From Cystobacter ferrugineus (GTDB taxonomy: Bacteria > Myxococcota > Myxococcia > Myxococcales > Myxococcaceae), in contig NZ_MPIN01000002.1 of assembly GCF_001887355.1 (NCBI RefSeq), positions 744,001 to 808,000 on the forward strand: a stretch of DNA of 64,000 nucleotides, written 5' to 3'. A program made the translations under genes and the position numbers. A model generated the notes under the pieces. It made no database searches, was not told where the DNA came from, and saw only the letters and a program-made list of their open reading frames with translations. Positions 4,977 to 58,587 of the stretch are shown piece after piece (the first letter of the stretch is position 1; each line of letters starts with the position of its first letter).

Positions 4977-4983
4977 GAAGCCC

Positions 4984-6354: not shown

Positions 6355-6441
6355 GATGTCCCGGCCAGTCTCCGCGCTACAGACGTGTGGCGCAACCCTG
6401 ACAGCCACCCCTGACACATGCCCGGGTGCCCGCTCCCGCAA

Positions 6442-6480: not shown

Positions 6481-6505
6481 GTGCTTCACACGGCGTCAGC
6501 CGGGC

Positions 6506-6952: not shown

Positions 6953-6982
6953 TGAATGTCTCCGTTGGTGCGGGCGAGGGGA

Positions 6983-7324
6983 CTAGCCGACCATCGCGTT
7001 ATAGGGGAGCAACGCCAGACCGCGGGCGCGCTTGATGGCCGTGGCCACCTCGCGCTGGTGCTTGGCGCAGTTGCCGGAGATGCGGCGGGGGATGATCTTG
7101 CCGCGCTCGGTGACGAAGTACTTCAGCGTCGCCTGATCCTTGAAGTCCACCTGGGCGTTCTTCTCGGCGCAGAAGCGGCACACCTTCTTGCGGCCAAAGC
7201 CGCGGCCACCACCGCGCTTCTCGTCATCGCCCCCGGCGCCACCGCGGCCGCCGCCATCCCGATCCCTGTCCCGATCCCGGTCGCCACCACCGCGGGACGC
7301 ATTCCTGTCGCTGTTGCCAATCAT
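6983..7324 (-). CDS. rpsR: 30S ribosomal protein S18 with zinc motif and Arg/Asp/Gly-rich N-terminal extension
   Basis: Small-subunit protein pairing with S6 on the platform. The canonical bS18 core is at about 44-113 ([17 protein letters not shown] through ARGLALLPY). It keeps CxxC and CxxH pairs (CRFC and CAKH), the zinc-binding 'C+' form. The N-terminal 40 or so residues are an alternating RD and Gly-rich tract ([18 protein letters not shown]), unusual for S18 and probably disordered. Start ATG is 7322-7324. It lies 47 nt after rpsF in the conserved S6-S18-L9 order. Confidence 0.96.
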
Positions 7325-41810: not shown

Positions 41811-41836
41811 AGTGGAGGCGGCGGGAATCGAACCCG
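41811..41836. other. Left attachment-site repeat (attL-like) of the tmRNA island
   Basis: A 26-bp perfect copy of 58225-58250, the sequence of the ssrA T-arm/acceptor 3' end read on the minus strand. Sequences to the left resume core-like or border genes; sequences to the right are accessory. This is the expected scar of site-specific integration at a tmRNA gene. Confidence 0.85.
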
Positions 41837-42993: not shown

Positions 42994-43980
42994 ATGCGTC
43001 TCCGAGCGTGCATCGCACTTCTTCTCTTTGTCTCGTCCTGCGCTACGTCAGCGCCCAGCCCAAAAGAGCCAGCGGCCCGAGACCCGAGGCTCGCCAACCT
43101 CCAGCGAGCGGCGAAGCTGCCCTGGACGGACGGGGGGCGGTGCGCCGTCCGCGAAGCTTCCGAGCCCTGGCCCGTGCTGGCGGAGCGGTGCTATCAGGCC
43201 CTCGACCATGACCGGCTCGAGTTTCACGACATCACGGGACGATGCGCGGTGGCCTCTGCTGGCGCCGCTGCCGTGGGGCTCGGGGTTTGCGTCCTCGCGG
43301 CTCCGGAGATCGTCGTGGGAGCAGTAGTTGTGGCGGGCGTGGTGGTGGTGGGCTTCGCCATCAAAGAGGCGCTGGAGGCTTACGAGAAGAAGGGCCGTCC
43401 CCAGGTTCGGCCGCCTACGCTGCCGCCGCCTACGCTGCCGGTGCCGGAGACGCGGCCTGAGCCGGAAGCGCGGCCGGTGCCTGAAGTGAAGCCCGTGCCT
43501 ATAACGAAGCCCGCCCCGCAGAAACCCTCGCCGACAAAAAGACCCAAGCCGGAGCCAAAGGGGCCGGATTTTTTCCCGCCTCTGGATCCACCCGAAACTT
43601 CGGAGCGAGATCGCAACAGGTGCGAGCCCATACCGAAAAATTATCACCGTGGCGGTAATAAATTGCACAACAAGTGCGCCGACAGAATTCCGAATAACAT
43701 TAACCCAGGTGGGGATGTGTTCGTGAATGGGAAGGACTTCGACGCGCTGCAACTGGCCACGCGCACGCTGTGGGAGGTCAAGACCGACAACTTCGACACG
43801 TACCCGCCCGAACTTCGCGAGTTCGTGCTCGTCGACCAATTGCCGAAATTGCAGCACGAGCGCGCCCTTGCTCTGGCCTGCGGCTTTGACTTCAAGGTCG
43901 GCGTGCGCAGCGCCGCGCATAAAGCCGCCTTGCTCGCCCAGGATATCACCCTCGATATTGTCGTCATGAATTGGTGCTGA
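42994..43980 (+). CDS. Lipoprotein toxin candidate with PD-(D/E)xK-like nuclease domain (DUF6310)
   Basis: A 328-residue modular protein. The signal peptide has lipobox VSSC (Cys16). Then comes a Gly/Ala/Val-rich hydrophobic region (about 85-125), a Pro-rich linker (about 130-200, PETRPEPEARPVPEVKPVP) and a compact C-terminal domain (about 208-328) with HRGGN..HNKCAD, GKDFDALQ and LWEVKTDNFD. The D...ExK pattern is that of PD-(D/E)xK nucleases. I recognise the C-terminal domain as DUF6310 of myxobacteria. The design matches polymorphic lipoprotein toxins such as the Sit toxins transferred between kin cells. The stop is 1 nt before the presumed immunity gene. Confidence 0.8.
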   Translation: MRLRACIALLLFVSSCATSAPSPKEPAARDPRLANLQRAAKLPWTDGGRCAVREASEPWPVLAERCYQALDHDRLEFHDITGRCAVASAGAAAVGLGVCVLAAPEIVVGAVVVAGVVVVGFAIKEALEAYEKKGRPQVRPPTLPPPTLPVPETRPEPEARPVPEVKPVPITKPAPQKPSPTKRPKPEPKGPDFFPPLDPPETSERDRNRCEPIPKNYHRGGNKLHNKCADRIPNNINPGGDVFVNGKDFDALQLATRTLWEVKTDNFDTYPPELREFVLVDQLPKLQHERALALACGFDFKVGVRSAAHKAALLAQDITLDIVVMNWC

Positions 43981-43981: not shown

Positions 43982-44743
43982 ATGGCAAACCCGCAGAGTC
44001 CCCTCGTCCTTACCGTTTATGCGCCTGCTCTCGCGGATGACGACAGCCGCCCTTTGGCAGTCATTCGTGGAATGGAGCGAGCGCTTCCCGGCTTGCGCCT
44101 GGAGTCGACGATCTCCAGCGAGGGGAAACTGGTCCCGCTACCGCAGCGCGAGGCATGGCTCGCCCAAGGGAGACCAAACGGAAGGGGGGTTCGGCTCATT
44201 TGCAATAGCGATGAGAGCTACCGGGTAACGGTTTCTGGATGGGAAAGACCGGCGGGGGTCTCCCCGAGAGGACAGTCACAGCTTGAAGTCCATGCAAAAC
44301 TGCCGCTGCATGTAGTGGGGAGCGCAGCGGCGGCGGATGTGTTTGAGAGCATGGGGGAGGCCACGCGCGCGTTTTGGGGGCGTGCGACGCCAGAAAGCGT
44401 AGCGGCTGAGATGGCGCAGCAAGTGCGCCATTCCGTGCGCCAGCCGCATGTGCCGCCACGAGGGCTGCCGACGCTCAAGCTCACAGAGGAAATCCGGTCG
44501 CCCGAGATTCCGCATCACCTGGGGTGGCTGAACTACTGGTCGGACGCTGCCGCACGGGCCATCGGCTTTCCGGACCCCGCGCGTGATGCGGAGCTGCTGT
44601 CACGCTCACGGCGTACCGCGACGGGTGGGTGGGTCGTGCAGCTCACTGATGCGCCGCTCGACCTGGACAACCCCGCCCACCTGGACGCGCTCAAACGGGC
44701 CTACGAGCGCTTCCCGGAGATTGGCGGGCGCGCAGCCCCTTGA
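43982..44743 (+). CDS. DUF5953 family protein, presumed immunity partner
   Basis: A 253-residue cytoplasmic protein, ATG 1 nt after the toxin stop. I recognise the myxobacterial DUF5953 pattern (VYAPALADDDSRPLAVIRGMERALPGLRLE, EIPHHLGWLNYWSDAAARAIGFPDPARDAELL). The family commonly follows DUF6310-type genes, so an antitoxin/immunity role is likely, though I know of no direct experiment. The last 40 residues are very regular (DAPLDLDNPAHLDALKRAYERFPEIGG). A short hairpin (44750-44771) lies between it and the convergent DUF2381 gene. Confidence 0.8.
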   Translation: MANPQSPLVLTVYAPALADDDSRPLAVIRGMERALPGLRLESTISSEGKLVPLPQREAWLAQGRPNGRGVRLICNSDESYRVTVSGWERPAGVSPRGQSQLEVHAKLPLHVVGSAAAADVFESMGEATRAFWGRATPESVAAEMAQQVRHSVRQPHVPPRGLPTLKLTEEIRSPEIPHHLGWLNYWSDAAARAIGFPDPARDAELLSRSRRTATGGWVVQLTDAPLDLDNPAHLDALKRAYERFPEIGGRAAP

Positions 44744-44771: not shown

Positions 44772-45725
44772 TCAGGGCCCCTTCGCTTTCCCCTCGGGGA
44801 AGGTGACGTTCTCAAGGGTGAAGGTGCGCGGCCCCTGTGCTTCCCATAGCTTGAGGGTGCAGGGGCAGCCGAGCTGCGCGCGCGCCCCCTCGATGCCCAC
44901 CACGACGGCACCGGCCCCATTCGCGGGGATGGGCGCCAGTGGCCAACGGGCAAGCTCCACCTGTTCCCCCGCCGAGTCCACCAGCGCCGCCCCCGCCAGC
45001 GTCCAGGGCTCCGCGCCGGGGTTTAAGAGGAGCAGCCGCACAGCCACGCTTGCCGGGCGAGTCTCCTTGGTGCGTGTGTAGCTGTAGCTCCAGGCTTCAT
45101 CGATCCCGAGCGCGTTGGTTGGCCGCTTCCTGACCTGCGAGAGAATATCCTTGGGCGCCACGACTCCGGCCCCCTCCAGCCACGCGGCTTCCATGAGTCC
45201 GCCCGGTCCCTCACGCTCGGCCAGAATCCGCGCCTTGTCCTCTTGACACTGGCGCGCTTCGGCCTGTGCTTCGTCACGCTCCTTCTTGAGCACCTCGGGC
45301 GGGCGCGGCTGCCGGAACACCTCCACCCGGCGCGTCCCCTTTGACGCATGACCCACGAGCCAAAAGCTCGCGGTTGCCGGAAGCGCGCCATCCGCGAAGC
45401 GCACCGTCACACGAACCCGTTCCCCCGGCAGATAACCCGCCTTGGGAATGACGTTGAGGCTCAGGCCCTCTTTACCTACGGACCAATCCGCAAGGCGGTT
45501 CTCTGGCTGAAACTCCACCGCTCCCACGGCGAGGCGGGAGTCAAAGAAGAACGTCGTCGGCTCGTCCGCGCTAGCGCACACTTCCAGCGCTCCCTCCGGA
45601 GAGCCTGCGGCCAAGTCAAAACGCGCCGTCGCGACGCAGGGGGGGACGGGGGGCGGCTCTGCGGCTTGCGCAGCACCAGCGAGCAGGGCGGCCAGCAAGA
45701 CGGCACCGGGAGAGGGGGGCAGCAC
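44772..45725 (-). CDS. DUF2381 family protein (myxobacterial, kinase-associated)
   Basis: A 317-residue exported protein with signal peptide VLLAALLAGAAQAA. The body matches the Myxococcales paralogous family DUF2381/TIGR02268: GSPEGALEVCASADEPTTFFFDSRL, then a helical charged segment (PPEVLKKERDEAQAEARQCQEDK) and a C-terminal beta domain. Genes of this family regularly follow Ser/Thr kinase genes, as here (32 nt downstream). GTG start at 45725 has GGAGG 10 nt upstream. Probably a periplasmic or surface partner of the kinase pathway. Confidence 0.85.
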   Translation of the reverse strand: MLPPSPGAVLLAALLAGAAQAAEPPPVPPCVATARFDLAAGSPEGALEVCASADEPTTFFFDSRLAVGAVEFQPENRLADWSVGKEGLSLNVIPKAGYLPGERVRVTVRFADGALPATASFWLVGHASKGTRRVEVFRQPRPPEVLKKERDEAQAEARQCQEDKARILAEREGPGGLMEAAWLEGAGVVAPKDILSQVRKRPTNALGIDEAWSYSYTRTKETRPASVAVRLLLLNPGAEPWTLAGAALVDSAGEQVELARWPLAPIPANGAGAVVVGIEGARAQLGCPCTLKLWEAQGPRTFTLENVTFPEGKAKGP

Positions 45726-45757: not shown

Positions 45758-47848
45758 TCAGGGCTGCCCGACAGGCTCAATGAGATAAACGCGCGTGTGT
45801 GTCTTGACGTTGCCGGGCGTGCTTCCGGGATCGAGGCACACGCCCAAGCCGGAGGGGCAATCAAAATTCTTGCCGTGCTCGTCCACGTAGCCCGTGAGGA
45901 CTTTCAGGCCAGCAACCAAACACACGGGGACAGTCCCCACGCCTGGAATCTTCGCCTCGGTGAAGGTGCCGAAAAGGCGGTTGTCGCCGAGCTGCCACTG
46001 TCCAAGTAGCAGGGTGCCGACAGGCAGCTTGCCCACGCGCCCGGAGATACCAACTTGGAGGGTAACACGGCCATCCTTCACCCTGACCACCTCTCCGGGC
46101 TCACCCTTGTACCTTTTGACCGTGGCGATATTGGTGCCGAACTCAACGTCGAACTGCTCGTGGGTCTTCCGCCAATCCTGGGGGCAGGAAATCGCGGGGG
46201 GCTCGGGGCGTACCTGGTTGTTGGTCGCGGTGCACCCAACACCCGTACAGCCTGCGAGCAACGCTGCCGCCATGGTTCCGCCCTTGAGTGGGAGGCGAAG
46301 GCCCGTTCGCTGCTTCTGGCTCCTGGAAGTCTCGGTCGTCGTCGGAGTGGACATAGCGTTGACGGCAAGCTTGGGAGGTTGAGCCCGAACGGGCGCCACG
46401 CTGGCCTGGACAACAGATTGCAACGGCTCCCATGGGATCGCCACTTCGTTCCCCCGAAAATCCCAGTCGGTAGAGAGGGTCCAGGCCAACTCCGGAGATG
46501 GTCTTTCCAGGCCAACCATCCCGGTCGTTCCTCCTGCGCCATCTCCGAGCCTCCAGAACCCGAGATTCACGGCCACCGCGCCCACCGTCACCAGGGCCGC
46601 CACGAGCCCCAGCAACCACCGGGCGCGACGCGGGTGGGTAGCCATGGACGGGGCGAGCTGCTCACGTCCTGGGAGCACTGGGGGCGCTACGGCGGGCGGC
46701 TCTTGCTCCCCCAGCGGCGCCACGTCACGCGGAGCGTCCACCGTTGGGGTTCGGTCCTGGTCCTCATCCATGGCGACGGGCTCGGCGTGCTCGGCCTGTT
46801 CGGAGGACGGAGGGTCATCCTTCGGGGGCACCTGTCCACGGCGCGGACGCCACTTCCCGGCCTTGTTGTACGCGCGCAGCACCTCGTTAGGTTCCCTCAA
46901 TGCCGGGTCATCAACCGTGGTGGTGAGCTGGGCATCGTTGGGATCGAACAGCGGCACATCCCACGCCGGGTCATCATCAGCCGCCTTTAGAGCACCTTCC
47001 AACGCCGCGCACAGCTCGGGGACATTTGGGTAGCGCTCAGCAGGCCATTCCGACAGCATCTTCATGCACACGCGCGAAAGGGCCACCGGCACACGAGGGT
47101 TGACCACGTGGGGAGCCGGGGGGCGCTGGTGAAGGATCCTTTCGTGTAGTTCCTTCCGTTCGCCGCTGGGGGGAAGCTCACCAAAAGGAAGCTCGTCTGT
47201 CAGGATCCAATAAAGTGTCACCCCCAAGGCCCAAAGCTCGTCAAGCACTCCGAATTCGTAACGTTCCGCGCCGTTCGGGTTGCCACGCTCAAAGCGCAGC
47301 GGCTCAGGCGCCCTGAACTCTTCGGTTCCCGGTGGGATACGTGAGCCCGTTAGACAGACAGCGCCAACCAGCGAGGCAATCCCAAAATCAATCAGGACAG
47401 GCCGCTCTGCCGCGCCACGAATGATGATGTTTGAGGGCTTCAAATCCCGATGAAATACCCCCTCCGCGTGAACCTCACCAAGGGTCCGTGCCACATCCAG
47501 AATGATCCGCGTGGCCTTGCGTGCCGATGGATTGTGTTTCAGGGCGTATGCGTCCAACGTGGGGCCCGGCACGTGTTCCATGATGATGAACGGGTGACCG
47601 GTCACCGGGTCGGGCCAATAATCAGAGCCGATGTAACGCACAACGCAAGGATGGGTCAGGTGGTTGAGGATCGCGATCTCGCGCTTTGCCCGGCCGTCCA
47701 GGCGATCAACCGACAGAAACTTCATGGCGAAAGCCCGGCCCGCGCGCTCCACCTTGAACACAACTCCAAGGCCCCCCACGCCGAGCAGCTCGACCACCTT
47801 GTACTCGCCTATTGTCTCGCCGATCCCCGGATGCCGTGCCACGTGCAA
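45758..47848 (-). CDS. Transmembrane Ser/Thr protein kinase
   Basis: A 696-residue eukaryotic-type (Hanks) kinase. The kinase domain is at 12-290, with glycine loop GVGGLGVV (23-30), Lys43 in FAMKFL, catalytic HRDLKPSN (133-140) and DFG (154-156), all intact. A charged linker, one transmembrane segment (about 412-433, LLGLVAALVTVGAVAVNLGFW) and an extracytoplasmic C-terminal domain (about 545-696, SCPQDWRKTHEQF through LLGQWQLGDNRLFG) follow. TTG start at 47848 is supported by GGAGG 8 nt upstream; the GTG two codons later is possible. It forms an operon with the DUF2381 gene and may share a transcript with the upstream XRE/pseudokinase genes (180-nt gap). Confidence 0.92.
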   Translation of the reverse strand: MHVARHPGIGETIGEYKVVELLGVGGLGVVFKVERAGRAFAMKFLSVDRLDGRAKREIAILNHLTHPCVVRYIGSDYWPDPVTGHPFIIMEHVPGPTLDAYALKHNPSARKATRIILDVARTLGEVHAEGVFHRDLKPSNIIIRGAAERPVLIDFGIASLVGAVCLTGSRIPPGTEEFRAPEPLRFERGNPNGAERYEFGVLDELWALGVTLYWILTDELPFGELPPSGERKELHERILHQRPPAPHVVNPRVPVALSRVCMKMLSEWPAERYPNVPELCAALEGALKAADDDPAWDVPLFDPNDAQLTTTVDDPALREPNEVLRAYNKAGKWRPRRGQVPPKDDPPSSEQAEHAEPVAMDEDQDRTPTVDAPRDVAPLGEQEPPAVAPPVLPGREQLAPSMATHPRRARWLLGLVAALVTVGAVAVNLGFWRLGDGAGGTTGMVGLERPSPELAWTLSTDWDFRGNEVAIPWEPLQSVVQASVAPVRAQPPKLAVNAMSTPTTTETSRSQKQRTGLRLPLKGGTMAAALLAGCTGVGCTATNNQVRPEPPAISCPQDWRKTHEQFDVEFGTNIATVKRYKGEPGEVVRVKDGRVTLQVGISGRVGKLPVGTLLLGQWQLGDNRLFGTFTEAKIPGVGTVPVCLVAGLKVLTGYVDEHGKNFDCPSGLGVCLDPGSTPGNVKTHTRVYLIEPVGQP

Positions 47849-48027
47849 AAGCTCTACCTCCTAGATGGGGAGCTTAGCACGACCGCGCACGACGGGCTCG
47901 AACAGCGGGACCGGGGTGGTGAGTGGGCCCCTCGCTGCATGACGACCGCTCCAAGGTCGGCCGTCCCCACCACCCCCAGCAAACATCCCACGACCACCAC
48001 CACCCCAGTCCCCAACTTGAGACGGTA

Positions 48028-48387
48028 CTACTCATCACGAGTAGCGACACCGTGGAGGACGCGCAGCAGCTCGCATCCTGCCCTGACCTTCGATTCTGGC
48101 CACTCGCGCATGAGGAGCACGGCGCGTTGTACCTCCGGTGAACGGTTCGTCTCCAAAGCTGCGCCGTCCTGGTTCATGCCGAGCAACGCATTTGCATCAG
48201 TGCAGAGCGCCCGCGCGATCCTCACGAACGCTCCCACTGATGGCATCAAGTGGCCTCGCTCAATGCGGCCGTAAACCTGAGCGCTCAAATCCGCCTGGGC
48301 TGCCACCTCAGCTTGCGTGAGCCCCAGTGCATTGCGAGCCTTCCGCGCGCCAGCACCTATGTTCTTCCGCAGAACGTCATCATCCAC
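48028..48387 (-). CDS. XRE-family helix-turn-helix regulator (second of pair)
   Basis: A 119-residue protein with an N-terminal HTH_3/Cro-C1 domain (ARKARNALGLTQAEVAAQADLSAQVYGRIERGHLMPSVGAFVRIARAL, about 10-60) and a helical C-terminal segment. I place the start at the GTG 48387 because GGAGG lies 7 nt before it; the longer frame from 48441 would overlap the upstream gene by 50 nt. The site overlaps the TGA of the first XRE gene, so the two are coupled. It is homologous to that gene (same IERGH..P.V..FV..A pattern), indicating tandem duplication. Confidence 0.85.
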   Translation of the reverse strand: MDDDVLRKNIGAGARKARNALGLTQAEVAAQADLSAQVYGRIERGHLMPSVGAFVRIARALCTDANALLGMNQDGAALETNRSPEVQRAVLLMREWPESKVRAGCELLRVLHGVATRDE

Positions 48388-48391
48388 CGCA

Positions 48392-48817
48392 TCACCTCCC
48401 GCGTTCTTCTCTGCGCCTGCGGCGCTCGGCCTTCGCCTCAATAAGATGGCAGCCAGTCTTCGTTATCAGCTTTATCTGCTCAGGCTTGAGTTCTCGCACA
48501 CTCCTGAGCACAGGTCGAGCGTCAGGCGGCAAATCATCTTCGCTTGACCTTATGGCAACGGGAGTGCTGCGAGGGACATCCATCCCCAGCAAGACATCGA
48601 CGGAAACCTTAAGCACCAACGCCAGTTTCACCAGCGTTCTAACGCGCGGAAGCCTGTGGCCCCGCTCGATCTTGCCGTACACCTCAATAGCAATTCCGAT
48701 TCGCTCGGCAACGTCGGCTTGACTCAGCTTGGCCCGATTGCGCGCGGGTTTCAGATTCTGCCGAAGCACATTCTGTGCTTTCACCCTCCATTCTTGGTCT
48801 GCCGCCGAACCCCTCAC
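48392..48817 (-). CDS. XRE-family helix-turn-helix regulator (first of pair)
   Basis: A 141-residue regulator. The HTH domain is at about 18-75 (ARNRAKLSQADVAERIGIAIEVYGKIERGHRLPRVRTLVKLALVL), with a hydrophilic C-terminus ending RRRREERGR. The GTG start at 48817 is 2 nt after the pseudokinase stop, with GAGGAGGG 9 nt upstream. A C-terminal segment (LKPEQIKLITKTGCHLIEA) matches the position of KVRAGCELLRVLHG in the second regulator. It probably autoregulates the operon, perhaps by heterodimerising with its paralogue (inference). Confidence 0.87.
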   Translation of the reverse strand: MRGSAADQEWRVKAQNVLRQNLKPARNRAKLSQADVAERIGIAIEVYGKIERGHRLPRVRTLVKLALVLKVSVDVLLGMDVPRSTPVAIRSSEDDLPPDARPVLRSVRELKPEQIKLITKTGCHLIEAKAERRRRREERGR

Positions 48818-48819
48818 GA

Positions 48820-49965
48820 TCAGCCCTCCTCGTCGTCCAGGTCTGAAAGCGCGGTGCGCTCGATAGGACTTCCAAGCAAGCGCCGCGCGCTCTTTGCCGC
48901 ACCGTAGATGCCGGACAACTCAGCACCCGCAGCCTTGTCGTCAAAGGGACTCTGGAGCTTCGCCAAGTATTCGCGCAGTCCATCGCGCATCTGAGCCGCG
49001 GTAAGACGCTCGCTCGGATCAGGCTGAAGGGCTCGGCGCACGATCTCGCCCAGACCTTTGGGCAACTGGTCAAGCCTATCCTTGAGCTGGGCAACGTCAA
49101 ACCGAAGTGCGCGGTCGGCCAGGACCCCGGGATCCGTCCACACGTGCTGTTCCGTTGTAACCTTACGGGCAACGCGGGGTTTCTGGACATCCTCGGGAAT
49201 GTCTACCGGGTCAAGCGCATACAGCGCCCACAACGTTTCCAACAGAGTGAGACCAAGGGAGAAAACATCCGCCCGTCCGTCAACCTTACGCGCTATGAGC
49301 GAGTCGCCAACAGGCCCCGAAGAGTCCATCACAGCCCGCCACAGCTCAGGCGCAGCATAGGCCGCGTCACCTCGAAGGATACCCGGAGGCGTCTTCAAGC
49401 GGTCGCGCAGCTCGGAGTATGCCGACCCGAAGTTCACCAGCTTGACCCGGCCGTCAAAGCCGACCCGTATACGCATCGGGCCCACGCCACGGTGAATGAT
49501 GTGGAGGGGGGTCCCCTGTTTATCCGCCTGCATGTGTGCATGGTCGAGCGCGTCAGCCACCAGTGACGCAACATGGGCGGCAAAAGCGGGGGAGACCCTG
49601 CGGCCAACCAGAAGGCTAAAATCCAATGCCGTCGCCAAGTAAAGCCCTGGCATGGACTCCGTGACAACATAAGTTGCGCGGTCAGGCGCAACCGTAATCC
49701 CGTGCACCTTGGCGATATGGGGGTGTTCCAAGTGCAAAGCCAGTTGAACCTCTTCCCAGTATCGCCCCCGTTGCTCGCCATCCCCGGAAACCGCAACAGG
49801 TTTCAATAGGACTTGGGTGCGCTCACCGTTCGCGACAGTGGTGCGCCACGCCTGATAAAGCGTGTCATAATCGCGATCCTCGACCTGGGTTGCATAGATC
49901 TGGTAGCGGAAGCCGTCCAGAGTGAAGTGACGATGTTTTACCCTTGGCAGCTCGGGCTTAGACAT
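48820..49965 (-). CDS. Ser/Thr kinase-fold protein, predicted pseudokinase
   Basis: A 381-residue cytoplasmic Hanks-fold protein with no transmembrane segment. The fold is recognisable (RYWEEVQLALHLEHPHIAKVHGI, AAYAAPELWRAVM, ADVFSLGLTLLETLWAL), with the ATP-site Lys probably K55 (VLLKPV). Key catalytic residues are replaced: HRGVGPMRI at 158-166 instead of HRDxKxxN, and NFG at 178-180 instead of DFG. Phosphotransfer should be absent or very weak. ATG 49965 has GGAGACG upstream. It is 14 nt after the lipoprotein gene and 2 nt before the first XRE gene. Confidence 0.88.
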   Translation of the reverse strand: MSKPELPRVKHRHFTLDGFRYQIYATQVEDRDYDTLYQAWRTTVANGERTQVLLKPVAVSGDGEQRGRYWEEVQLALHLEHPHIAKVHGITVAPDRATYVVTESMPGLYLATALDFSLLVGRRVSPAFAAHVASLVADALDHAHMQADKQGTPLHIIHRGVGPMRIRVGFDGRVKLVNFGSAYSELRDRLKTPPGILRGDAAYAAPELWRAVMDSSGPVGDSLIARKVDGRADVFSLGLTLLETLWALYALDPVDIPEDVQKPRVARKVTTEQHVWTDPGVLADRALRFDVAQLKDRLDQLPKGLGEIVRRALQPDPSERLTAAQMRDGLREYLAKLQSPFDDKAAGAELSGIYGAAKSARRLLGSPIERTALSDLDDEEG

Positions 49966-49979
49966 TGCACGTCTCCAGG

Positions 49980-50579
49980 TCAATTTCGGTCGAGCTTGGG
50001 CGCGTCAGCCTGGGGCCAGTTGACTCCGGAATTGCGGTAGTACCTACCCAGCTCGTAACCTCCCACCCCGGCACTGGTTGGCGAAACCTGCACTGCGCCA
50101 ACACAGTAGGCGGGAACGCCCGTAAGCGCTGCGGCGAGATAGCCTTCTGGAGTGAGCACGAACAGGTCGCGATACTCCTGCACCATCATGCCCAGGCCCA
50201 CTCTCGAAACGCTGGCCCCCTTGGTCTCGACGTACCGCAGTAGCTCGTCAGCCACGAAGCGCGGGGCATACTGGCGCGGCACGGATGGGAGGATCGCCAG
50301 ACTGCGGCGCAACATCGTGGCCTGTTCTGGAGACACCTCGCGGATCTGGGGGATACTGCTCGCGGACAGCCCGGCCCCCAGCAGCAGGGCGCCGAACTCA
50401 TCCAGACCCGCCAGCGTGTCCCGCGTAGCGGCGAGGGCCAGCGGCGGCGGCTGACTGGCGCAAGCACATGGACCAATGACGACAAGCAGGGTCAGGACGA
50501 CAGCCAGGCCACGAGACAAAAGCAATCTCTCAAAGGCAATACGAATCCAGAACCGCAGAGTGTAGAACTCAGCAGGCAT
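49980..50579 (-). CDS. Hypothetical exported protein/lipoprotein, first gene of pseudokinase operon
   Basis: A 199-residue protein of unknown family. The N-terminus has a basic region and hydrophobic helix (about 24-38, GLAVVLTLLVVIGPCAC) with Cys residues that could form a late lipobox. The mature part contains ATMLRRSLAILPSVPRQYAPRFVADELLRYVETKG, and ends in a Tyr/Asn-rich region. It stands 14 nt upstream of the pseudokinase gene, so they are probably cotranscribed. The insertion element at 50598 lies immediately upstream and may have replaced the native promoter. Confidence 0.72.
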   Translation of the reverse strand: MPAEFYTLRFWIRIAFERLLLSRGLAVVLTLLVVIGPCACASQPPPLALAATRDTLAGLDEFGALLLGAGLSASSIPQIREVSPEQATMLRRSLAILPSVPRQYAPRFVADELLRYVETKGASVSRVGLGMMVQEYRDLFVLTPEGYLAAALTGVPAYCVGAVQVSPTSAGVGGYELGRYYRNSGVNWPQADAPKLDRN

Positions 50580-50597: not shown

Positions 50598-51909
50598 GGT
50601 AAGGCATTGGAAAAGTATAAGTTGACCAACTTCACTTGGCGCGACGCGGCTCCAAGCAATAATTCCAGTCGCCATGGAACTCATCCTTGCGCAGCGCCAA
50701 TCGCTTCATTTCCGCCTTCGTGATCTCGATGCCCGTCGGATACTTCTTCTTGTCCAAGCGCGCCCTGACGCGCAGACCCTTTTTAGTTTGCGTTCTGCCG
50801 ATGAGGTTGACGACTGTCTCAAAACTGGTCAGTGGCTTGCCCCTCCAGTTCTGGGTGATGTGACAGAAGAGCCGATGTTCGATCTTGTTCCACTTGCTCG
50901 TTCCTGGCGGGAAGTGGCACACATGAATATTCAGTCCCGTGTCATCGGCCAGCTCTTGTAGTTCTTTCTTCCAGGCGCGTGTGCGATACCCGTTGCTACC
51001 GCCAGCATCTGCCGTGATGAGAAGTTCCGTCGCATTCGGATAGGCTGGCAAACCCATCGTTCTCCACCATTGGCGAATCGATGCGACGGCAAAAGCCGGT
51101 GTGTCATGATCGCGCCCGACACTCACCCACGCCTCGTTGCGGGTCATGTCGAAGACTCCGTAGGGGATCGCCTTGCCCACCGCATCGTCGGGAAAGTCGT
51201 GGACGTTGACCTCTTCCGGTTGCCCCTTCGGTTCCCACTCACGGCCTGCGTTCCTGAAGTTCCCGACGAGTTCCTTCTTCTTCGTATCGACGGAGATGAC
51301 GGGTTGGTTTCGCGCCTGGAAGTCCTCCACCATCGCGCTGATGTGCTCGAATTGCGCGTTGCGATCCACATGGTCCGTGCCCTCATGGCTCTTGCGCAAT
51401 GCGTGGAGGCTATAGCCCAGCTCGTGCAGCTTCTTTCCGACACTCGTGTGACTGACGATGAACCCCTGGTTGCGCAACTCCACGGCCAGAATCCGCGTGC
51501 TTTTGCATGTCCATCGCAGCGGCGACATCGGATCCCCTCTCGTGGTCGGCGCAACCAGACGCTCGAGTGCCTCGACCCATCCTCCCTGCACCAAGGCCAA
51601 CGCCTTGCGGCCACCGCCAGGCCGACGCTGACGTCCAATGACTACTTCGCCTTTCTTCAACTCCTCGCGGCCTGCTCGGATCGTCGCCCGCGCCAAACCA
51701 GTCGCGCTCGCAACCACCGCGTCGCCACCGTAGCCTATCGTGCGTGACTCCGTCGCTGCCCACAATCGACGTGCCCTCTCATTCAGGACGCCTTCAAGAG
51801 CGAGATACTTGGCACGGAGGGCCGCTTCCAGTTTCGAGTCGTGCCTCATGAAGTAGCCAGATCACAGATCGTGGAAGTTGGCAACGTTATTGTTTTCCAG
51901 TGCCTTACC
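50598..51909 (-). mobile_element. ISAzo13-type insertion sequence with terminal inverted repeats
   Basis: A 1312-bp element with imperfect inverted repeats of about 36 bp, 50598-50633 and 51874-51909; the outer 17 bp match at 16 positions and the inner CCAACTTC is identical. The single transposase gene fills it. No target-site duplication is evident. The right end interrupts the phage prohead-protease fragment at 51910. Confidence 0.8.
50632..51849 (-). CDS. ISAzo13 family transposase
   Basis: A 405-residue DDE transposase. Recognisable segments: TGLARATIRAGREEL, RRPGGGRKAL, the first catalytic Asp region VISVDTKKKELVGNFRNAGREW, the second ITADAGGSNGYRTRAWK, and the Glu region KWNKIEHRLFCHITQNWRG. 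The C-terminus (FHGDWNYCLEPRR) is typical. It appears intact, so the element may be active. Confidence 0.92.
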   Translation of the reverse strand: MRHDSKLEAALRAKYLALEGVLNERARRLWAATESRTIGYGGDAVVASATGLARATIRAGREELKKGEVVIGRQRRPGGGRKALALVQGGWVEALERLVAPTTRGDPMSPLRWTCKSTRILAVELRNQGFIVSHTSVGKKLHELGYSLHALRKSHEGTDHVDRNAQFEHISAMVEDFQARNQPVISVDTKKKELVGNFRNAGREWEPKGQPEEVNVHDFPDDAVGKAIPYGVFDMTRNEAWVSVGRDHDTPAFAVASIRQWWRTMGLPAYPNATELLITADAGGSNGYRTRAWKKELQELADDTGLNIHVCHFPPGTSKWNKIEHRLFCHITQNWRGKPLTSFETVVNLIGRTQTKKGLRVRARLDKKKYPTGIEITKAEMKRLALRKDEFHGDWNYCLEPRRAK

Positions 51910-52167
51910 AATGGGCAGCGCGGGCTCGGCTCCCGTGCTCGCTGCCTGCGCGCCGTCGTCGTGATTGAACAGAACGACGCCGTTCGCGTTGTAGCCCTCG
52001 ACGCGCCAACCCTTGACGCTCAGGCGATCCGAGTAGCGATCGAAGTCACCGTCGCTCGCCTTGAACGTATAGACACGTTGACCGCTCCCAGCCTCGACGG
52101 CGGTTAGCGCAGCCGCATCCTTCCGAACGGCTGCAAGCTGAAGAGAGCGTGTGATCGCATTGGGCAT
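51910..52167 (-). pseudogene. Phage HK97-type prohead protease, truncated by the insertion sequence
   Basis: The ATG at 52165-52167 (GGGAGCG ribosome-binding site directly upstream) starts MPNAITRSLQLAAVRKDAAA. It continues into FKASDGDFDRYSDRLSVKGW and GVVLFNHD, the N-terminal signature of caudoviral prohead proteases. About 85 residues remain, and the frame then runs into the IS end. The catalytic His/Ser part is missing and no continuation is seen beyond the element. Confidence 0.7.
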
Positions 52168-52996: not shown

Positions 52997-53030
52997 TTGG
53001 AACAGCCCAATTGACGCTTGACGGTTGACA
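52901..53030. repeat. Tandem GTCAAGCC and TTGAC heptamer motifs (iteron-like)
   Basis: GTCAAGCC occurs twice head to tail at 52901-52916. TTGACGC, TTGACGG and TTGACAC are tandem at 53011-53031 (7-bp period). A further TTGACG is at 52821 and CGTCAA at 52684. The shared GTCAA/TTGAC core suggests one binding protein. They lie directly before the excisionase-like gene. Confidence 0.65.
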
Positions 53031-53093
53031 CCCGCCGCTCCGCTGCCGCTGCTGGCCTGGGCCACGTCAAGAATCCGCACCCATTTAGGCGTT

Positions 53094-53348
53094 GTGGAAC
53101 AGCCCATCTTGTCGCCAGCCCCGAGCCTGCCCGCGCCCACCGAAGCGGGCTTCAACGCGTCTGAATTCCTAACCGTTGATGAAGCCGCAGCTTTGCTGCG
53201 CGTGAACCGGAAAACGCTCTATGAGTCGATCCGGCGCGGCGAGGTGCCGGGAGTTCTCCACCTCGGTCGATCTGTCCGACTTCGCCGGAGCGTTCTGCTA
53301 TCCTGGACGCCGGGTAACAGCAGTCCCGCGCTTGGAAAAAAGCCATGA
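53094..53348 (+). CDS. Excisionase-like helix-turn-helix protein
   Basis: An 84-residue DNA-binding protein with the MerR/excisionase-type winged helix FLTVDEAAALLRVNRKTLYESIRRGEVPGVLHLGRSVRL (about 24-65). I chose the GTG at 53094; a TTG at 53025 lies within the TTGAC repeats and would extend it by 23 residues. Its TGA overlaps the integrase ATG (53345-53348). It is likely the recombination directionality factor of the element. Confidence 0.85.
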   Translation: MEQPILSPAPSLPAPTEAGFNASEFLTVDEAAALLRVNRKTLYESIRRGEVPGVLHLGRSVRLRRSVLLSWTPGNSSPALGKKP

Positions 53349-54623: not shown

Positions 54624-54644
54624 GTGGAGGCGGCGGGAATCGAA
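54624..54644. other. Internal attachment-site repeat (21 bp of ssrA 3' end)
   Basis: Perfect 21-bp match to the core of 41811-41836 and 58225-58250. It lies 68 nt downstream of the integrase stop, so the integrase-bearing element is best defined as 41811-54644, with a second element or remnant from 54624 to 58250. Confidence 0.8.
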
Positions 54645-54953
54645 GCCGCCGCCGGAGGCTTCCGGCGAGAGCGCTCCAGAGCGGTTGAGAGCGGTTTTCG
54701 TAGGAGTTCCAGCCGATTACGCTGCTCCCTGCTCCGCGCCGACGTGTGTTGAGAGCGCTTCAGCGCGGGTCTGCTGTAGCAATGTAGGCGAGAGTTGCAA
54801 GAACGAGCGTCTCGTCGCCTTCTCGTGCAAGGGCTGAGCGGGCGGCGGCACGGGCACGCGGGCCTGACGGCGCCTCCCCTGCCTCCAGACAGGCGCGCAG
54901 CGCGTTGGCCAGCTCGCGCCAGCGGGCCTCGGCGTCTCCGGGTGCACGCTCGG

Positions 54954-56099
54954 CTACTCCTTCTTCGGGACCTTCTGCTCGATCTCCGCGAGGACAGCGT
55001 CCCTGTCGAGCCGGATCTGTGTGTCCCGGAGGTTCTCCTTCAGGGTACGCCTGCTGGCCTCCACGGTCTTGGAATCCGCATGACCCGGGCGCGCGTAGTA
55101 GGGATCGCTCATGACCTTTTCCATGTCCGCGTCCGGATGGTACTGGTAAAGCTGTACGTTGTTCTTGGCTCCCGGCTTGGGCTCCATGACCATGGGAATC
55201 TTATACCCAGCCTTCGTGGTGGACACGCCGCTCACCACCACATGGTCATTCGGATTCCGTGGTGCTCCCTTGGAATGATTGGAGGGGGGGGCTTGCTCCA
55301 GCTCGAGCTTGCCATCCTTGGACTCTTTCGCCCCGAGGGCCGCCCAGAAACTGGTGGCGGTGTTGTTGATGGTGTCCCCCTGGTTCACCTTCTGCGCCAG
55401 GCCATGGAACGCGGTCCCGGGCGTCGCCTTGATAGGGTTCTCGTTATAATTGTCTTTGTCATCATTCCAGTCGAACTGCTCGCGCTCCTGGGCGGTCAAC
55501 ACCTCCACCTTCGACCCAATGGCCTTCCCCACCGTCCACGCGCCGGCACAGACGCCCGTGATGCTGGCTTTGTTGGCCTTGTCATTCAACGCCGCCTCCA
55601 GAAGCGTCTCCTCGTACTCCGTCCGGCTCGTGTGCTCGAGCTTGTTCAGCTCTTCCTTTTCGTTGGTGGGGTTCTGTTTGACACGATTGAAATCCTTGTC
55701 CGCGGGATCCTGACTGCGCTTCGACTTCACCTGCGCGTCGTTCGCGGTCAAGGAACCGAATACGAAGAGATGGTTGATCCCCTTGAGGGCCCCATTGGGA
55801 TCCTTCTGACTCTCTTTGCGCTGCCTTGCCAACTCCGGGATGCTCTTGCCATCCGCGCCCGCGGGCAGGAGTTTGACGAGCGGCTTGGGATTTCCCTCTG
55901 GGACGGAGATGCTATCAATGACGTTCTTGTCGTATTTGAGCGCCTTGCCGTCATACCCTCCCCGAACGAACACGCCGATGACCGGGACGGGGCTGTCTTC
56001 GGGCCTGGGCGGACGCTTCCACTCCTTCTTGGGCGCTCCCCGGGTCTGCGAGGTGCTCGGCGGCTCCATGGGAGGGGGCTTCGGTCCAATCTTGGGCAT
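54954..56099 (-). CDS. Hypothetical protein with divergent class I glutamine-amidotransferase-like motifs
   Basis: A 381-residue soluble protein of no assigned family. The order of motifs recalls peptidase C26/GATase1: VPVIGVFVRGGYDG near residue 40, INHLFVFGSL, a nucleophile-elbow-like ITGVCAGAWTVG (about 180), DHVVVSGVST and LYQYHPDAD (compare GVQWHPE) near 310. If so, the Cys in GVCAGAW and the His in YHPD would be catalytic. N- and C-terminal regions are charged and Pro-rich, without signal peptide. Lys- and Asn-rich composition differs from the core genes, suggesting transfer. Assignment is pattern-based only. Confidence 0.68.
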   Translation of the reverse strand: MPKIGPKPPPMEPPSTSQTRGAPKKEWKRPPRPEDSPVPVIGVFVRGGYDGKALKYDKNVIDSISVPEGNPKPLVKLLPAGADGKSIPELARQRKESQKDPNGALKGINHLFVFGSLTANDAQVKSKRSQDPADKDFNRVKQNPTNEKEELNKLEHTSRTEYEETLLEAALNDKANKASITGVCAGAWTVGKAIGSKVEVLTAQEREQFDWNDDKDNYNENPIKATPGTAFHGLAQKVNQGDTINNTATSFWAALGAKESKDGKLELEQAPPSNHSKGAPRNPNDHVVVSGVSTTKAGYKIPMVMEPKPGAKNNVQLYQYHPDADMEKVMSDPYYARPGHADSKTVEASRRTLKENLRDTQIRLDRDAVLAEIEQKVPKKE

Positions 56100-56334
56100 G
56101 GCGGCTCTTCCAGCAGGGGAGAGAACAGCAGAGCTGTAAAAAAACGCTATGAACGTATCATGACCCCATCGAACCGCCCCGTCAACACAATCAGGATTTT
56201 CCCGGAAATTGAGAAGCGGAAGGGGTGTCAGCGGAAGGGGTGTCAGACGATTCGTAGGAAACGTTTGACACCTTCTATGGGGTCCCTGGTGGAAGCGTAG
56301 GGGTCAGGCTCCGGCCGCGCGGGTCTGAACGATT
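56100..56334. repeat. Tandem 15-bp repeat with inverted partner
   Basis: Two perfect tandem 15-bp units (56216-56230, 56231-56245) ending in GGTGTCA are followed by an inverted TGACACCTT (56266-56274). They can fold into a stem around a 20-nt loop. The arrangement resembles REP-type elements or a protein-binding operator. It lies upstream of the GATase-like gene and downstream of the HxlR gene. Confidence 0.7.
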
Positions 56335-56748
56335 TTATCGCTCAGCATCGTCGTAAGCGCGGCGGCATTCCTCGACGCGGGACAAGTTGTTCCTGATCCA
56401 GAAGTTGAGGCCTTCGAGGGCGCGCAACATGCCCACGCCCATCTCGGTCAATTCGTATTCGACTCGCGGCGGCACTTCGGGAAAGTAATGGCGTGCCACA
56501 AGGCCATCTCGCTCCAGATTTCGCAGCGTAAGCGTCAGCATGCGCTGGGTGATCCCGTCAAGCTCACTCTTGAGCACCGAGAAGCGGAGCCGACGCCCAC
56601 TCGCGATCGATAGGCGCCAGATGACCTGGACAGTCCATTTGTCGCCGAGCCGCGTGCAGATCCCGTTCGCCGGATACGGTCTGAAGTGCGGACTCCCCTC
56701 CGTCTCCTCATCGGACTGACCATAGATCGGTTTGTCCAAGCGTATCAT
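56335..56748 (-). CDS. HxlR-family winged-helix regulator
   Basis: A 137-residue transcription factor. HxlR pattern: GDKWTVQVIWRLSIASGRRLRFSVLKSELDGITQRMLTLTLRNLERDGLVARHYFPEVPPRVEYELTEMG, nearly full length. I started it at MIRLDKPIYG (ATG 56746-56748). It is divergent from an NmrA-type oxidoreductase gene with 89 bp between, the classic arrangement for an HxlR sensor controlling its neighbour. Such regulators often sense quinones or aldehydes. Confidence 0.92.
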   Translation of the reverse strand: MIRLDKPIYGQSDEETEGSPHFRPYPANGICTRLGDKWTVQVIWRLSIASGRRLRFSVLKSELDGITQRMLTLTLRNLERDGLVARHYFPEVPPRVEYELTEMGVGMLRALEGLNFWIRNNLSRVEECRRAYDDAER

Positions 56749-56801
56749 CCTTGTGCCCGAGGCTGGGAAATGTGCCGTCTTCCGGCGGCTTTCCAGCTCA
56801 T

Positions 56802-56811
56802 ATACCAGTAT
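56802..56811. promoter_or_regulatory. Candidate HxlR operator
   Basis: ATAC-CA-GTAT, a 10-bp palindrome in the 89-bp divergent promoter region, 27 nt before the NmrA ATG. HxlR-family dimers bind short GTAC/GTAT-type inverted repeats in such positions. Assignment is inferred. Confidence 0.4.
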
Positions 56812-56837
56812 CCCATGATCAAATACGAGGGTGGACA

Positions 56838-57743
56838 ATGAGGGATACGCAACGGACTATCCTGGTCTTCGGCGCGACCGGCCAACAGGGAGGAGCGGTC
56901 GCCAGAGCCCTCCTGCGGGCGCAGTGGGCCGTTCGCGCACTCGTGCGAGATCCCGCGGCACCCAAGTCGATTGCGCTGCGCGAGGCGGGCGTCGAACTCG
57001 TGCGGGGATCGTTCGCCGACATCGACGTGCTCCGCGCCGCGATGAAGGATGCCTATGGCGTCTTCAGCGTGGTGCCGAGTTCGCCCAGCGGCGCCGTGAC
57101 CGATGAGGAGGAAGTTCGTTTCGGGACCGCGATCGCGGACCTGGCCTCCGAGAGCGGCATCGCGCATCTCGTCTATTCCTCGGGAGCCAGCGTCGGGGAG
57201 AAGCCGACGGGTGTAGCACGTTTCGACACCAAGGCTCGCATCGAGGCGCACATCCGAGAACTGCCAGTCACCGCGACCATTGTCAGGCCTGTGATATTCA
57301 TGGAGATGCTCGTAAGACCCGGGTTCGGCCTGGACAAAGGTCGGTTCACATTTTTCCTCAGACCCAACCAGTCGATGCAGCTCATCGCCGTGGACGACAT
57401 CGGAAAATTCGTCACCGCGATCTTCGCCGACAAGATGCGGTTCAGTGGGGAGACGTTGAAGATCGCGAGCGATACCGTTACAGGCCGCGAATTGGAAACC
57501 ATCTTGACCGAAGCCGCCGGCCGGCCTATCGCCTATGCGCGCTTTCCCGATGAGGTCCTCGCGGCCAATCCCTATCTCAGACAGTTGGCCGCGAGTCTGG
57601 ACGAAGGCCCACTTGCGGACCACGTGGATCTGAACGTCATGCGTGAGCTCAATCCGGAGATTCTCTCATTCCGGTCCTGGCTTGCCGGGAGCGGTCGCAA
57701 GGCCCTCGACGAAGCCCTTGGGACAACCGGTCTCGGTTTATGA
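56838..57743 (+). CDS. NmrA-type NAD(P)-binding oxidoreductase
   Basis: A 301-residue short-chain-dehydrogenase-like protein. The N-terminal Rossmann motif VFGATGQQGGAVARALL (about 10-26), RALVRDP, then VVPSSPSG and LVYSSGASVGEKPTGV, and VRPVIFMEML fit the NmrA/HSCARG subgroup, which senses or reduces NAD(P)/quinones. It is driven divergently from the HxlR gene. Function probably in electrophile/quinone response (inference). Confidence 0.9.
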   Translation: MRDTQRTILVFGATGQQGGAVARALLRAQWAVRALVRDPAAPKSIALREAGVELVRGSFADIDVLRAAMKDAYGVFSVVPSSPSGAVTDEEEVRFGTAIADLASESGIAHLVYSSGASVGEKPTGVARFDTKARIEAHIRELPVTATIVRPVIFMEMLVRPGFGLDKGRFTFFLRPNQSMQLIAVDDIGKFVTAIFADKMRFSGETLKIASDTVTGRELETILTEAAGRPIAYARFPDEVLAANPYLRQLAASLDEGPLADHVDLNVMRELNPEILSFRSWLAGSGRKALDEALGTTGLGL

Positions 57744-57870
57744 CTTCACGACCCAGATGAGGTCGGGGTGGGCGGCGATGGCCCTGCCGAGTTCGGCGCC
57801 GTCGAACATGGCCAGGTTGGCGCCGTTACCGAGGCCTCCATGCTTTCCACCGGGAGGTTGGTCACGCTCA
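57741..57870 (-). pseudogene. C-terminal remnant of an FAD-dependent monooxygenase
   Basis: The minus strand at 57741-57834 reads GNGANLAMFDGAELGRAIAA then HPDLIWVVKS and a stop, matching the conserved C-terminal region of TetX/PHBH-like FAD monooxygenases (GEGANLAMLDGAELG). The upstream part is frameshifted and no N-terminal FAD domain remains. It overlaps the stop of the NmrA gene on the other strand. A relic of gene loss within the island. Confidence 0.5.
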
Positions 57871-58173
57871 TGAAGTGAGGCATCAGCCGCCCCGCGCCCA
57901 GCACTCCGCCCGGTTCGAAGTCATTGCGCTCCGTCCGCGGGAAGGCGGACTCGTCCTTCGCCTTGAAGCCCTCCACCGCGTCCGCTTCGGCTGGCCGCAC
58001 GAGAGAAGCTTGCCTGCCCGCAGCAGGAGGAGCACTTAAAGTGCGGAAGAGCCACGCAACCGGGCAAGCCCACCACGTTCCCGTGGGAGGCCCTCTGCGC
58101 CGAGGTGGCGAAGCTCCAGGTGCAGCGCCACGAGCGAGGCCAGCTCGCCCGGCTGCCGCTGGCGGCTTCAGCG
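57871..58173. other. Degenerate stretch before the ssrA terminator
   Basis: No intact gene. A plus-strand reading near 58047-58170 (GKPTTFPWEALCAEVAKLQV, then QRHERGQLARLPLAAS) looks like protein but has no start, and is probably a fragment of a deleted gene. Short minus-strand coding-like text at 57880-58000 is also incomplete. Confidence 0.4.
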
Positions 58174-58211
58174 GAAAAAGAAAACCCCGGGTCGCCTGCT
58201 GGCGCCCGGGG
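58174..58211 (-). terminator. Intrinsic terminator of ssrA
   Basis: Minus-strand stem CCCCGGG-C-GCC type: 58205-58211 pairs with 58185-58191 and 58201-58204 with 58193-58196 around TGCT-type loop, followed by TTTTCTTTTTC (58174-58184). It starts 16 nt downstream of the mature tmRNA 3' end. Confidence 0.9.
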
Positions 58212-58224
58212 CTCTACTACATCC

Positions 58225-58250
58225 AGTGGAGGCGGCGGGAATCGAACCCG
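58225..58250. other. Right attachment-site repeat within the ssrA 3' end
   Basis: 26 bp identical to 41811-41836. It includes the tmRNA acceptor/T-arm 3' strand, so integration preserves the functional ssrA gene. It marks the right boundary of the island. Confidence 0.85.
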
Positions 58251-58587
58251 CGTCCGAAAGCCTTCCGCTCTTCGACCCTACGTGCGTAGTCCGCGCTTTG
58301 TTACGTCCCACGGGCTTCCACGGACGGAATCCTGTGAGCCGGTCCTGGAAGATCTCACCGCCGAGAGCCCAGGCTCCCTCGTCGGCCAGCCCGCATTATG
58401 ACGGCCCTATCCCACCCCACGGGCCGAGGGCGAGAGGACCGCGCACTAGGAAACTGCTAGTTAGGCAGCCAGCGCGAGCTCAACGTTGTCGTTGGCTTTT
58501 GTGTCTGTGTTGGCGTTTTTACGAGCGACCAACGTGCTCGGCACGCGTCTCGAACTTCCATGCCCCCGTCGAAACCAGGTCGCCCCC
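58227..58587 (-). ncRNA. ssrA: Transfer-messenger RNA
   Basis: A 361-nt tmRNA. The 5' end GGGGGCG (58581-58587) pairs with CGCCTCC at the 3' end to form the 7-bp acceptor stem; the T-arm GGTTCGATTCCC is present and CCA is not encoded. The resume region encodes the tag ANDNVELALAA followed by TAA (58461-58496). It rescues stalled ribosomes and adds the degradation tag. The 3' end is the attachment site of the neighbouring island. Confidence 0.97.
58461..58496 (-). CDS. tmRNA proteolysis tag reading frame
   Basis: Eleven codons plus stop within ssrA: A-N-D-N-V-E-L-A-L-A-A. The C-terminal LAA is the usual ClpXP recognition end. Translated only after trans-translation onto tmRNA, so it has no start codon. 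Confidence 0.93.
   Translation of the reverse strand, partial: ANDNVELALAA

Follow-up and report, generated by a model that had tools for sequence, protein, structure and literature searches.

A recurrent gene cassette of integrase islands that joins a predicted pseudokinase to two XRE regulators and a transmembrane kinase in Cystobacter ferrugineus

A stretch of 64,000 nucleotides (nt) of Cystobacter ferrugineus (contig NZ_MPIN01000002.1, positions 744,001 to 808,000; hereafter the window) carries a cassette of six genes, in which a kinase-fold protein that has lost its catalytic residues (the pseudokinase PK) is encoded between a predicted lipoprotein (EXP) and two XRE regulators (XRE1 and XRE2), followed by an active-type transmembrane Ser/Thr kinase (STPK) and a DUF2381 protein. 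The cassette lies on an integrase island, its gene order recurs in other loci and genomes, its genes are co-inherited, PK evolves under purifying selection, and the STPK changes faster outside its kinase domain than within it. The explanation preferred here, held with confidence and doubt in equal measure, is a cassette that would pass an envelope signal to repressors, with the STPK and DUF2381 as sensor, PK as a non-catalytic relay and the XRE proteins as the switch. As a whole, the cassette looks like an undescribed signalling switch.

A close-packed operon beside a kinase gene pair

EXP, PK, XRE1 and XRE2 lie head to tail on the minus strand between positions 50579 and 48028. Intervals of 14, 2 and 4 nt separate them, and their starts are preceded by purine-rich stretches. 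Genes were called with our own gene caller, and gene ends may be off. The features of the cassette, in the order of transcription, are the following.

49980..50579, minus strand: EXP, predicted lipoprotein (Cys40) of 199 amino acids (aa), a stand-alone protein homologous to the N-terminal part of SitA-like polymorphic toxins; PADLOC PDC-M17A, E 2.8e-23
48820..49965, minus strand: PK, pseudokinase of 381 aa with an ATG start, HRG...NFG, β3 Lys and αC Glu kept
48392..48817, minus strand: XRE1, XRE/HTH_3 regulator of 141 aa, GTG start
48028..48387, minus strand: XRE2, XRE/HTH_3 regulator of 119 aa, GTG start
47885..48027, minus strand: possible long hairpin in the gap from XRE2 to STPK, z −0.7 here and stronger in close relatives
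45758..47848, minus strand: STPK, active-type transmembrane Ser/Thr kinase of 696 aa with HRD and DFG
44772..45725, minus strand: DUF2381 (TIGR02268) protein with an N-terminal hydrophobic segment

In a Pfam scan PK matched Pkinase (E 8.7e-14), XRE1 and XRE2 matched HTH_3 (E 7.7e-14 and 8.6e-12), and no family was found for EXP. The two regulators share 42% identity over 69 aa (E 2e-16) and are therefore paralogous in their HTH part. The STPK, with HRD and DFG intact and a hydrophobic segment at residue 412, adjoins the DUF2381 gene. Because 179 nt separate XRE2 from STPK, the STPK and DUF2381 genes probably form a second transcript. A single transcript reaching DUF2381 was rejected, given that this gap, in which relatives have a hairpin, parts XRE2 from STPK. 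These results agree with a preliminary description of the window that had noted four close-packed genes with good ribosome-binding sites, two paralogous XRE regulators, and HRG for HRD and NFG for DFG in the kinase-fold protein. The exported protein of that description is refined here to a predicted lipoprotein.

Recurrence and co-inheritance of the cassette

Sixty regions were fetched around homologues and six profiles were mapped on them. The counts that follow refer to regions chosen from search hits and to loci that are not independent, some being orthologues across species and several of those with an HRD kinase being the same locus. The order EXP > PK > XRE1 > XRE2 > STPK > DUF2381 on one strand, termed class A, was found at 24 loci, six of them in the window's genome and 18 in seven others; these 8 genomes belong to two genera, one of which is Archangium. 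At every class A locus at least two XRE genes, an STPK gene and a DUF2381 gene lie downstream of PK on the same strand; EXP was called at 18 of the loci and a third XRE gene at nine, and at one locus (L100) every XRE call best fits the XRE2 profile. XRE2 is inverted in class B (7 loci), and class C has the order STPK > DUF2381 > PK > XRE1, with XRE2 convergent. That the neighbourhood might be conserved nowhere else, an outcome which the preliminary description had named as one that would refute its own reading, is contradicted by its recurrence in other loci and genomes, at the 24 class A loci and in the two sister layouts.

At the 48 loci whose PK homologue lacks HRD (these include L123, with HRA and outside the clade described below, and L157, cut by a contig end, and L111 contributes its two PK loci separately), XRE1 was found 41 times, XRE2 41 times, STPK and DUF2381 44 times each and EXP 18 times, against 0, 2, 3, 3 and 1 of the 11 HRD loci. 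The association of XRE1 with the non-HRD state is strong (41/48 vs 0/11, Fisher 1.1e-7), and co-occurrence of the cassette genes exceeds chance. PK, two XRE genes, STPK and DUF2381 lie together within 8 kb at 37 of the 48 non-HRD loci, which bears out the earlier-noted pairing of a pseudokinase with XRE genes. The earlier reading is thus supported in part, for the conserved operon, the pseudokinase, the XRE pairing and the mobile island; its control of the XRE proteins by PK and its decoy or defence role are proposals. The STPK and DUF2381 genes had been placed downstream on the same strand, correctly; in the light of these counts they are members of the cassette and not mere followers.

Tree-distance correlations, from which L111, L157, L100 and L106 were excluded, reached r 0.90 between PK and STPK (38 loci) and 0.95 between PK and EXP (16 loci), with 0 of 1000 permutations as high. 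Among 96 genomes of the family, homologues scoring at least 540 bits were present in all 10 genomes of two genera and in none of the other 86, in which the best score was 391 bits. In a scan of named genomes, Archangium lansinium, A. violaceum and Hyalangium versicolor together gave 10 loci.

A kinase fold with conserved loss of catalytic residues

The window PK has HRG at the HRD position, Arg in place of the catalytic-loop Asn and NFG at the DFG position, and no glycine-rich loop is visible in its sequence. The β3 Lys and αC Glu are retained, and both are invariant in 15 related pseudokinases (alignment A1). A predicted model (pLDDT 79) adopts a kinase fold, for which PknB is the best PDB match. 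As judged from these residues, PK should be incapable of ordinary phosphotransfer. The ratio of nonsynonymous to synonymous substitution rates (dN/dS) for PK is 0.07-0.25 across 13 locus pairs, and the protein is therefore maintained by selection. A search of viral contigs gave no relative of PK.

The 63 homologues form a gradient, in which the outer ones keep HRD and the DFG Asp, the next group has HRA with the DFG Asp mostly retained, and the groups belonging to the EXP-PK-XRE operon have HRA together with NFG or a variant. HRA is the family norm, the window's HRG being the sole Gly at that position. With the exception of L123, the HRA/HRG homologues fall into one clade of 50 (support 0.84, in a tree without L157), throughout which the catalytic Asp is absent; the DFG Asp is gone in classes A and B, and most class C members retain it. 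The catalytic Asp seems to have been lost in a single event. The layout of the cassette may predate that loss of catalysis, because the HRD loci L118 and L124 already pair XRE, STPK and DUF2381 genes with a kinase that has HRD and DFG; L124 additionally carries EXP.

At four loci (L091, L092, L100 and L140) a second, tandem pseudokinase lies next to EXP with motifs that are even more degenerate (THLG/THFG), and in three of these four copies the Lys is lost or changed to Arg.

Fast change of the transmembrane kinase beyond the membrane

HRD and DFG are present in 42 of 43 STPK stretches, the remaining one being a fragment without that region, and a strong hydrophobic segment was found in 30 of the 31 STPKs tested. 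Across 11 locus pairs the kinase domain has a dN/dS of 0.08-0.26 and the part beyond the membrane one of 0.23-0.66, the latter being higher in 11/11; sequence identity is likewise lowest beyond the membrane in all 11 pairs. Between L141 and L146, for example, STPK identity is 98% within the kinase domain and 54% beyond the membrane. Such fast change fits a variable recognition surface. The dN/dS of DUF2381 is 0.22-0.51 (13 pairs).

The hairpin between XRE2 and STPK is long and G+C-rich in relatives, with z at or below −2 in 8 of the 18 class A stretches folded and down to −6, and it stands upstream of STPK in L089, L090, L096-L098, L104, L144 and L145. In an alignment of the hairpin 92.7% of cells are paired, vs 36-55% when slid, and four pairs show double changes. 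Its covariation score equals that of shuffles; pairing is kept and covariation is limited.

The lipoprotein EXP and SitA-like toxins

In alignments of 15 and 26 sequences Cys40 of EXP is invariant at a lipobox-like position, and EXP is predicted to be a lipoprotein. Its relatives in the same genomes include lipoproteins, mostly of 460-540 aa, which share about 150 aa after the lipobox, a second conserved stretch and variable C-termini. EXP aligns to full-length toxins across the lipobox Cys and these ~150 aa and stops before the rest of the toxin, ending after about 150 mature residues without a C-terminal nuclease toxin. Two of the eight SitA-like proteins scanned have a C-terminal Tox-REase-5, and at 3 of 9 loci inspected (L060, L038 and L093) the gene upstream of the SitA-like toxin overlaps it by 11 bp. 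Such an overlap is reported for the sitB-sitA genes (PMC5562445), and SitA is described as a lipoprotein with an N-terminal escort domain of ~375 aa and a variable nuclease (PMC8546572). By alignment EXP is related to the N-terminal portion of SitA-like polymorphic toxins and lacks the toxin, SitA-like being judged from the described architecture and from proteins found here.

EXP is the first gene of the class A operon and has no adjacent immunity gene, the next called gene being the pseudokinase at all 18 class A loci with EXP. The six class A loci without an EXP call include L089, broken by an insertion sequence (IS), L090, near a contig end, and L097, with a weak remnant. NCBIfam gave no match for five SitA-like toxins and three EXP-like proteins. 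The predicted model of EXP has a pLDDT of 87, and naming it by fold was abandoned after a PDB search with no match better than E 0.9. A plasmid search gave a single match, which covered 17% of a SitA-like toxin in the region of its C-terminus.

An integrase island at the tmRNA gene

The remaining features of the window that concern the cassette belong to the island around it.

41812..41836, plus strand: att-like repeat of 25 bases of the transfer-messenger RNA (tmRNA) 3' end, far end of the island
42994..43980, plus strand: lipoprotein-like DUF6310 protein, candidate island cargo toxin
43982..44743, plus strand: DUF5953 protein, candidate partner, possibly immunity, of the DUF6310 gene
50602..51903, minus strand: ISAzo13-type insertion sequence, ending ~20 bp upstream of the EXP start
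51862..52167, minus strand: open reading frame (ORF), what remains of a prohead-protease-like gene after interruption by the IS, with its low end inside the IS
53025..53348, plus strand: HTH_17 protein, excisionase-like, with a homologue in L098
53345..54556, plus strand: tyrosine integrase
54624..54644, plus strand: att-like repeat, 21 bases shared, beside the integrase
58226..58587, minus strand: tmRNA gene (ssrA), integration target

The 3' end of the tmRNA is repeated at 41812 (25 bases) and at 54624 (21 bases), and these repeats and the integrase flank the window cassette, in keeping with the mobile island that had been suggested for it. The repeats point to two tandem islands at the tmRNA gene, the first measuring 12.8 kb and containing the operon and a terminal integrase. 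The second, small unit (54624-58226) lies between the att-like repeat and the tmRNA gene and holds an ORF of 381 aa (54954-56099) for which Pfam gave no match.

Seven of the 24 class A cassettes stand between copies of the ssrA 3' end, those of the window, L098, L099, L103, L144 and L145 and, with a variant pair, L097. The 13-base core of the repeat recurs in 12 of the 24 regions of class A, in none of the 8 of class B (L101 included) and in 2 of the 15 of class C and others; it was found in none of 11 HRD loci and none of 87 other short loci. Cassettes L124 and L139 adjoin an integrase and tRNA-Leu. In L098, L144 and L145 the integrase is 98-99% identical, and PK there is only 55-57% identical to the window PK. 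The same three islands also encode an HK97-type capsid and a prohead-protease-like protein. The phage relatives of the island capsid are all remote, none of the 167 records reaching 60% identity.

The cargo between DUF2381 and the far repeat varies, with DUF6310/DUF5953 in the window and L090, a lipoprotein and an ankyrin protein in L089 and L096, a TIR protein in L144, a HEC-06-like gene in L145 and a Lamassu LmuB-like gene in L097. The DUF6310 gene directly followed by the DUF5953 gene has the look of a toxin-immunity pair, and the pair in L090 (7154-8840) is 77% and 68% identical. A gene of 1111 aa beside the L105 cassette (3673-7008) has a weak SduA/DUF4263-like match.

A proposed mechanism and its alternatives

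In the scheme we infer, which covers every interaction, phosphorylation and DNA-binding step as well as the signal, the operators and the genes controlled, the STPK, partnered by the exported DUF2381 protein, would sense an envelope signal via the variable region that it has beyond the membrane. Its active kinase domain would then phosphorylate PK and/or XRE1. PK would serve as a conformational adaptor, holding XRE1 and XRE2 or letting them go; these two would repress the promoter of their own operon and perhaps genes of the island (cargo, excision), and the EXP lipoprotein could be the operon's envelope output or a feedback ligand.

Several results weigh against this scheme. The STPK pattern could also be given by recombination or relaxed constraint, dN/dS beyond the membrane stays below 1, and the cytoplasmic linker exceeds the part beyond the membrane in dN/dS in 4 of the 11 pairs (1.23 in one). 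DUF2381 is a large expansion in myxobacteria and far commoner than the cassette (396 matches across the ten genomes of the two genera and 0 in 14 control genomes). EXP was not called in any class B or class C locus, and its association with the non-HRD state falls short of significance (18/48 vs 1/11, P 0.085). The tree correlation of DUF2381 and XRE2 is lower, at 0.43, and correlated trees arise from linkage alone without interaction. A further island in the window's genome (L172, contig C10; 15.9 kb, with a 99% identical integrase) carries an STPK-DUF2381 pair, its DUF2381 being 92% identical to that of the window, and gave no match to PK, XRE or EXP. Scans for sigma-70 promoters and terminators remained at shuffle level. 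Finally, the native promoter of the window copy is probably lost, because the IS ends ~20 bp upstream of the EXP start, and this copy may therefore be silent or driven by the IS.

A contact-dependent island-recognition switch, rather improbable, would have a disarmed lipoprotein with a SitA-type delivery domain in the outer membrane signal the presence of the island to neighbouring cells. The STPK ectodomain and DUF2381 would form a polymorphic receptor, and the dead kinase would relay to two XRE repressors that decide on weapon expression or island movement. If true, this would be a pseudokinase gating transcriptional repressors inside a mobile element; we know of no bacterial pseudokinase in such a role, and no such title was present among those listed in the literature searches.

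The system may instead centre on the lipoprotein. EXP would sit in the outer membrane and perhaps pass between cells, as a decoy blocking entry of SitA-type toxins or as a reporter of an island-carrying neighbour, and the kinase and XRE genes would only regulate it. The match of EXP to full-length toxins up to the point where the toxin begins, the Tox-REase-5 of two such proteins, the ~375-aa escort domain of published SitA families (PMC8546572) and the leading position of EXP in the class A operon are all consistent with this reading, which is nevertheless considered unlikely, as EXP was not called in classes B and C or at six class A loci, and the SitA likeness derives from SitA-like proteins found here, not from named SitA sequences. 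Anti-phage defence or superinfection control, with the STPK as defence kinase, the pseudokinase as phage-sensing or regulatory subunit and the XRE proteins keeping it off, is improbable. Both kinases match PD-T4-6 profile models, as would be expected of any Pkinase domain. Lamassu-, HEC-06- and TIR-like genes occur on the islands, and at E 1e-6 117 PADLOC families were matched among 134 class A flanking genes (of 143; nine, mostly at region edges, were dropped) vs 10 among 125 control genes (of 159; kinases, L121 and edge genes were dropped), counts that refer to models and not to genes, come from PADLOC used without its cut-off and have controls that are partly orthologous loci. The flanking-gene family names among the matches listed cover 25 of 131 and 25 of 117 families. 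Six of ten flanking genes checked singly had no PADLOC match at 1e-6, and defence cargo beside the cassette does not make the cassette itself a defence system.

Whether PK is truly inert bears on another alternative, in which the degenerate kinase would modify XRE1 directly by Mg-independent phosphotransfer or some other transfer. Its β3 Lys and αC Glu are invariant, and its HRA..R and NFG motifs are conserved and not eroding. The replacement of the catalytic Asp, loop Asn and DFG Asp, the lack of a visible glycine loop and the fate of the Lys in the tandem copies all make this proposal doubtful in a high degree. An addiction module like HipBA, with a kinase-like toxin and XRE antitoxins, is suggested by the 2-nt gap between the kinase-fold gene and the small XRE genes and by matches below cut-off to TIGR03070 (HipB-like) and to an RstR-like model. 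PK matches Pkinase and no HipA model, however (among Pfam protein-kinase families; NCBIfam kinase models were matched below cut-off), its catalytic residues are gone, and two XRE genes with an STPK and DUF2381 do not fit such a module, which is very unlikely here. Hitchhiking, the least probable of these explanations, would have the genes co-located without functional link since islands move as blocks, in line with the island context and with the correlated trees that linkage alone gives. It is opposed by the three layouts, which retain the same partners despite an inverted XRE2 and a relocated STPK-DUF2381 pair, and by the ssrA repeats, mostly absent from class B and C regions.

Relation to known systems

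The preferred scheme, of a kinase sensor acting through a pseudokinase on repressors, touches several described systems. EXP resembles the SitA/SitB/SitI toxins in its lipoprotein N-terminus, in the occurrence of its region within the longer lipoproteins with variable C-termini, and in the upstream overlap at some of their loci (PMC5562445, PMC8546572); it differs in having no toxin domain, second conserved stretch or adjacent immunity gene and in its place within a regulatory operon. Myxobacterial STPK-DUF2381 (TIGR02268) pairs likewise have both genes, adjacent and in order, but here they are joined to a pseudokinase, two XRE genes and often a lipoprotein, and most DUF2381 genes sit elsewhere.

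HipBA and the defence kinases (PD-T4-6) have a kinase-fold protein with an XRE neighbour, or a kinase in a conflict island; PK differs from them in not being a HipA, in its lost catalytic residues and in the six-gene layout. Phage satellites of PICI/cfPICI type have their own integrase and capsid genes. The islands described here are like them in size (13-16 kb), in their integrase and att repeats, in an HTH_17 excisionase-like gene and, in three islands, in the HK97 capsid and prohead-protease-like genes; they differ in that no packaging gene was identified, in analyses that included no search aimed at terminase, and in that the window has a protease remnant only.

Bacterial pseudokinases are a poorly explored class, according to a review (PMC12599244). 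The Ser/Thr pseudokinase families it treats (ActPs1-3, GLW, CP1, DYD, DLHK) also combine a conserved kinase fold with lost catalytic motifs; the main text of the review contains no words beginning with myxo, XRE or Archangium. Among the matches listed from openly licensed literature, most subscription papers and bioRxiv preprints being outside its scope, no title or abstract beginning describes the cassette, and a search there for PDC-M17 and DUF2381 gave no paper. With one pseudokinase that shows conserved catalytic loss, purifying selection and constant XRE and active-kinase partners, the six-gene cassette makes the role of a dead kinase directly testable, and it links kin-discrimination-type lipoproteins, integrase islands and kinase signalling.

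The insertion sequence in the window copy

The IS upstream of EXP is 1.3 kb long (50602-51903) and 100% identical to other copies in the genome; the gene cut on its other side is the protease-like one, and no capsid gene was seen in the window island, unlike the three sister islands. Copies of the IS in the window's genome lie on contigs C36, C33, C13, C3 and C2, with partial copies at the ends of contigs C30 and C13. Four of the five full copies adjoin genes of this island family, as do both partial copies.

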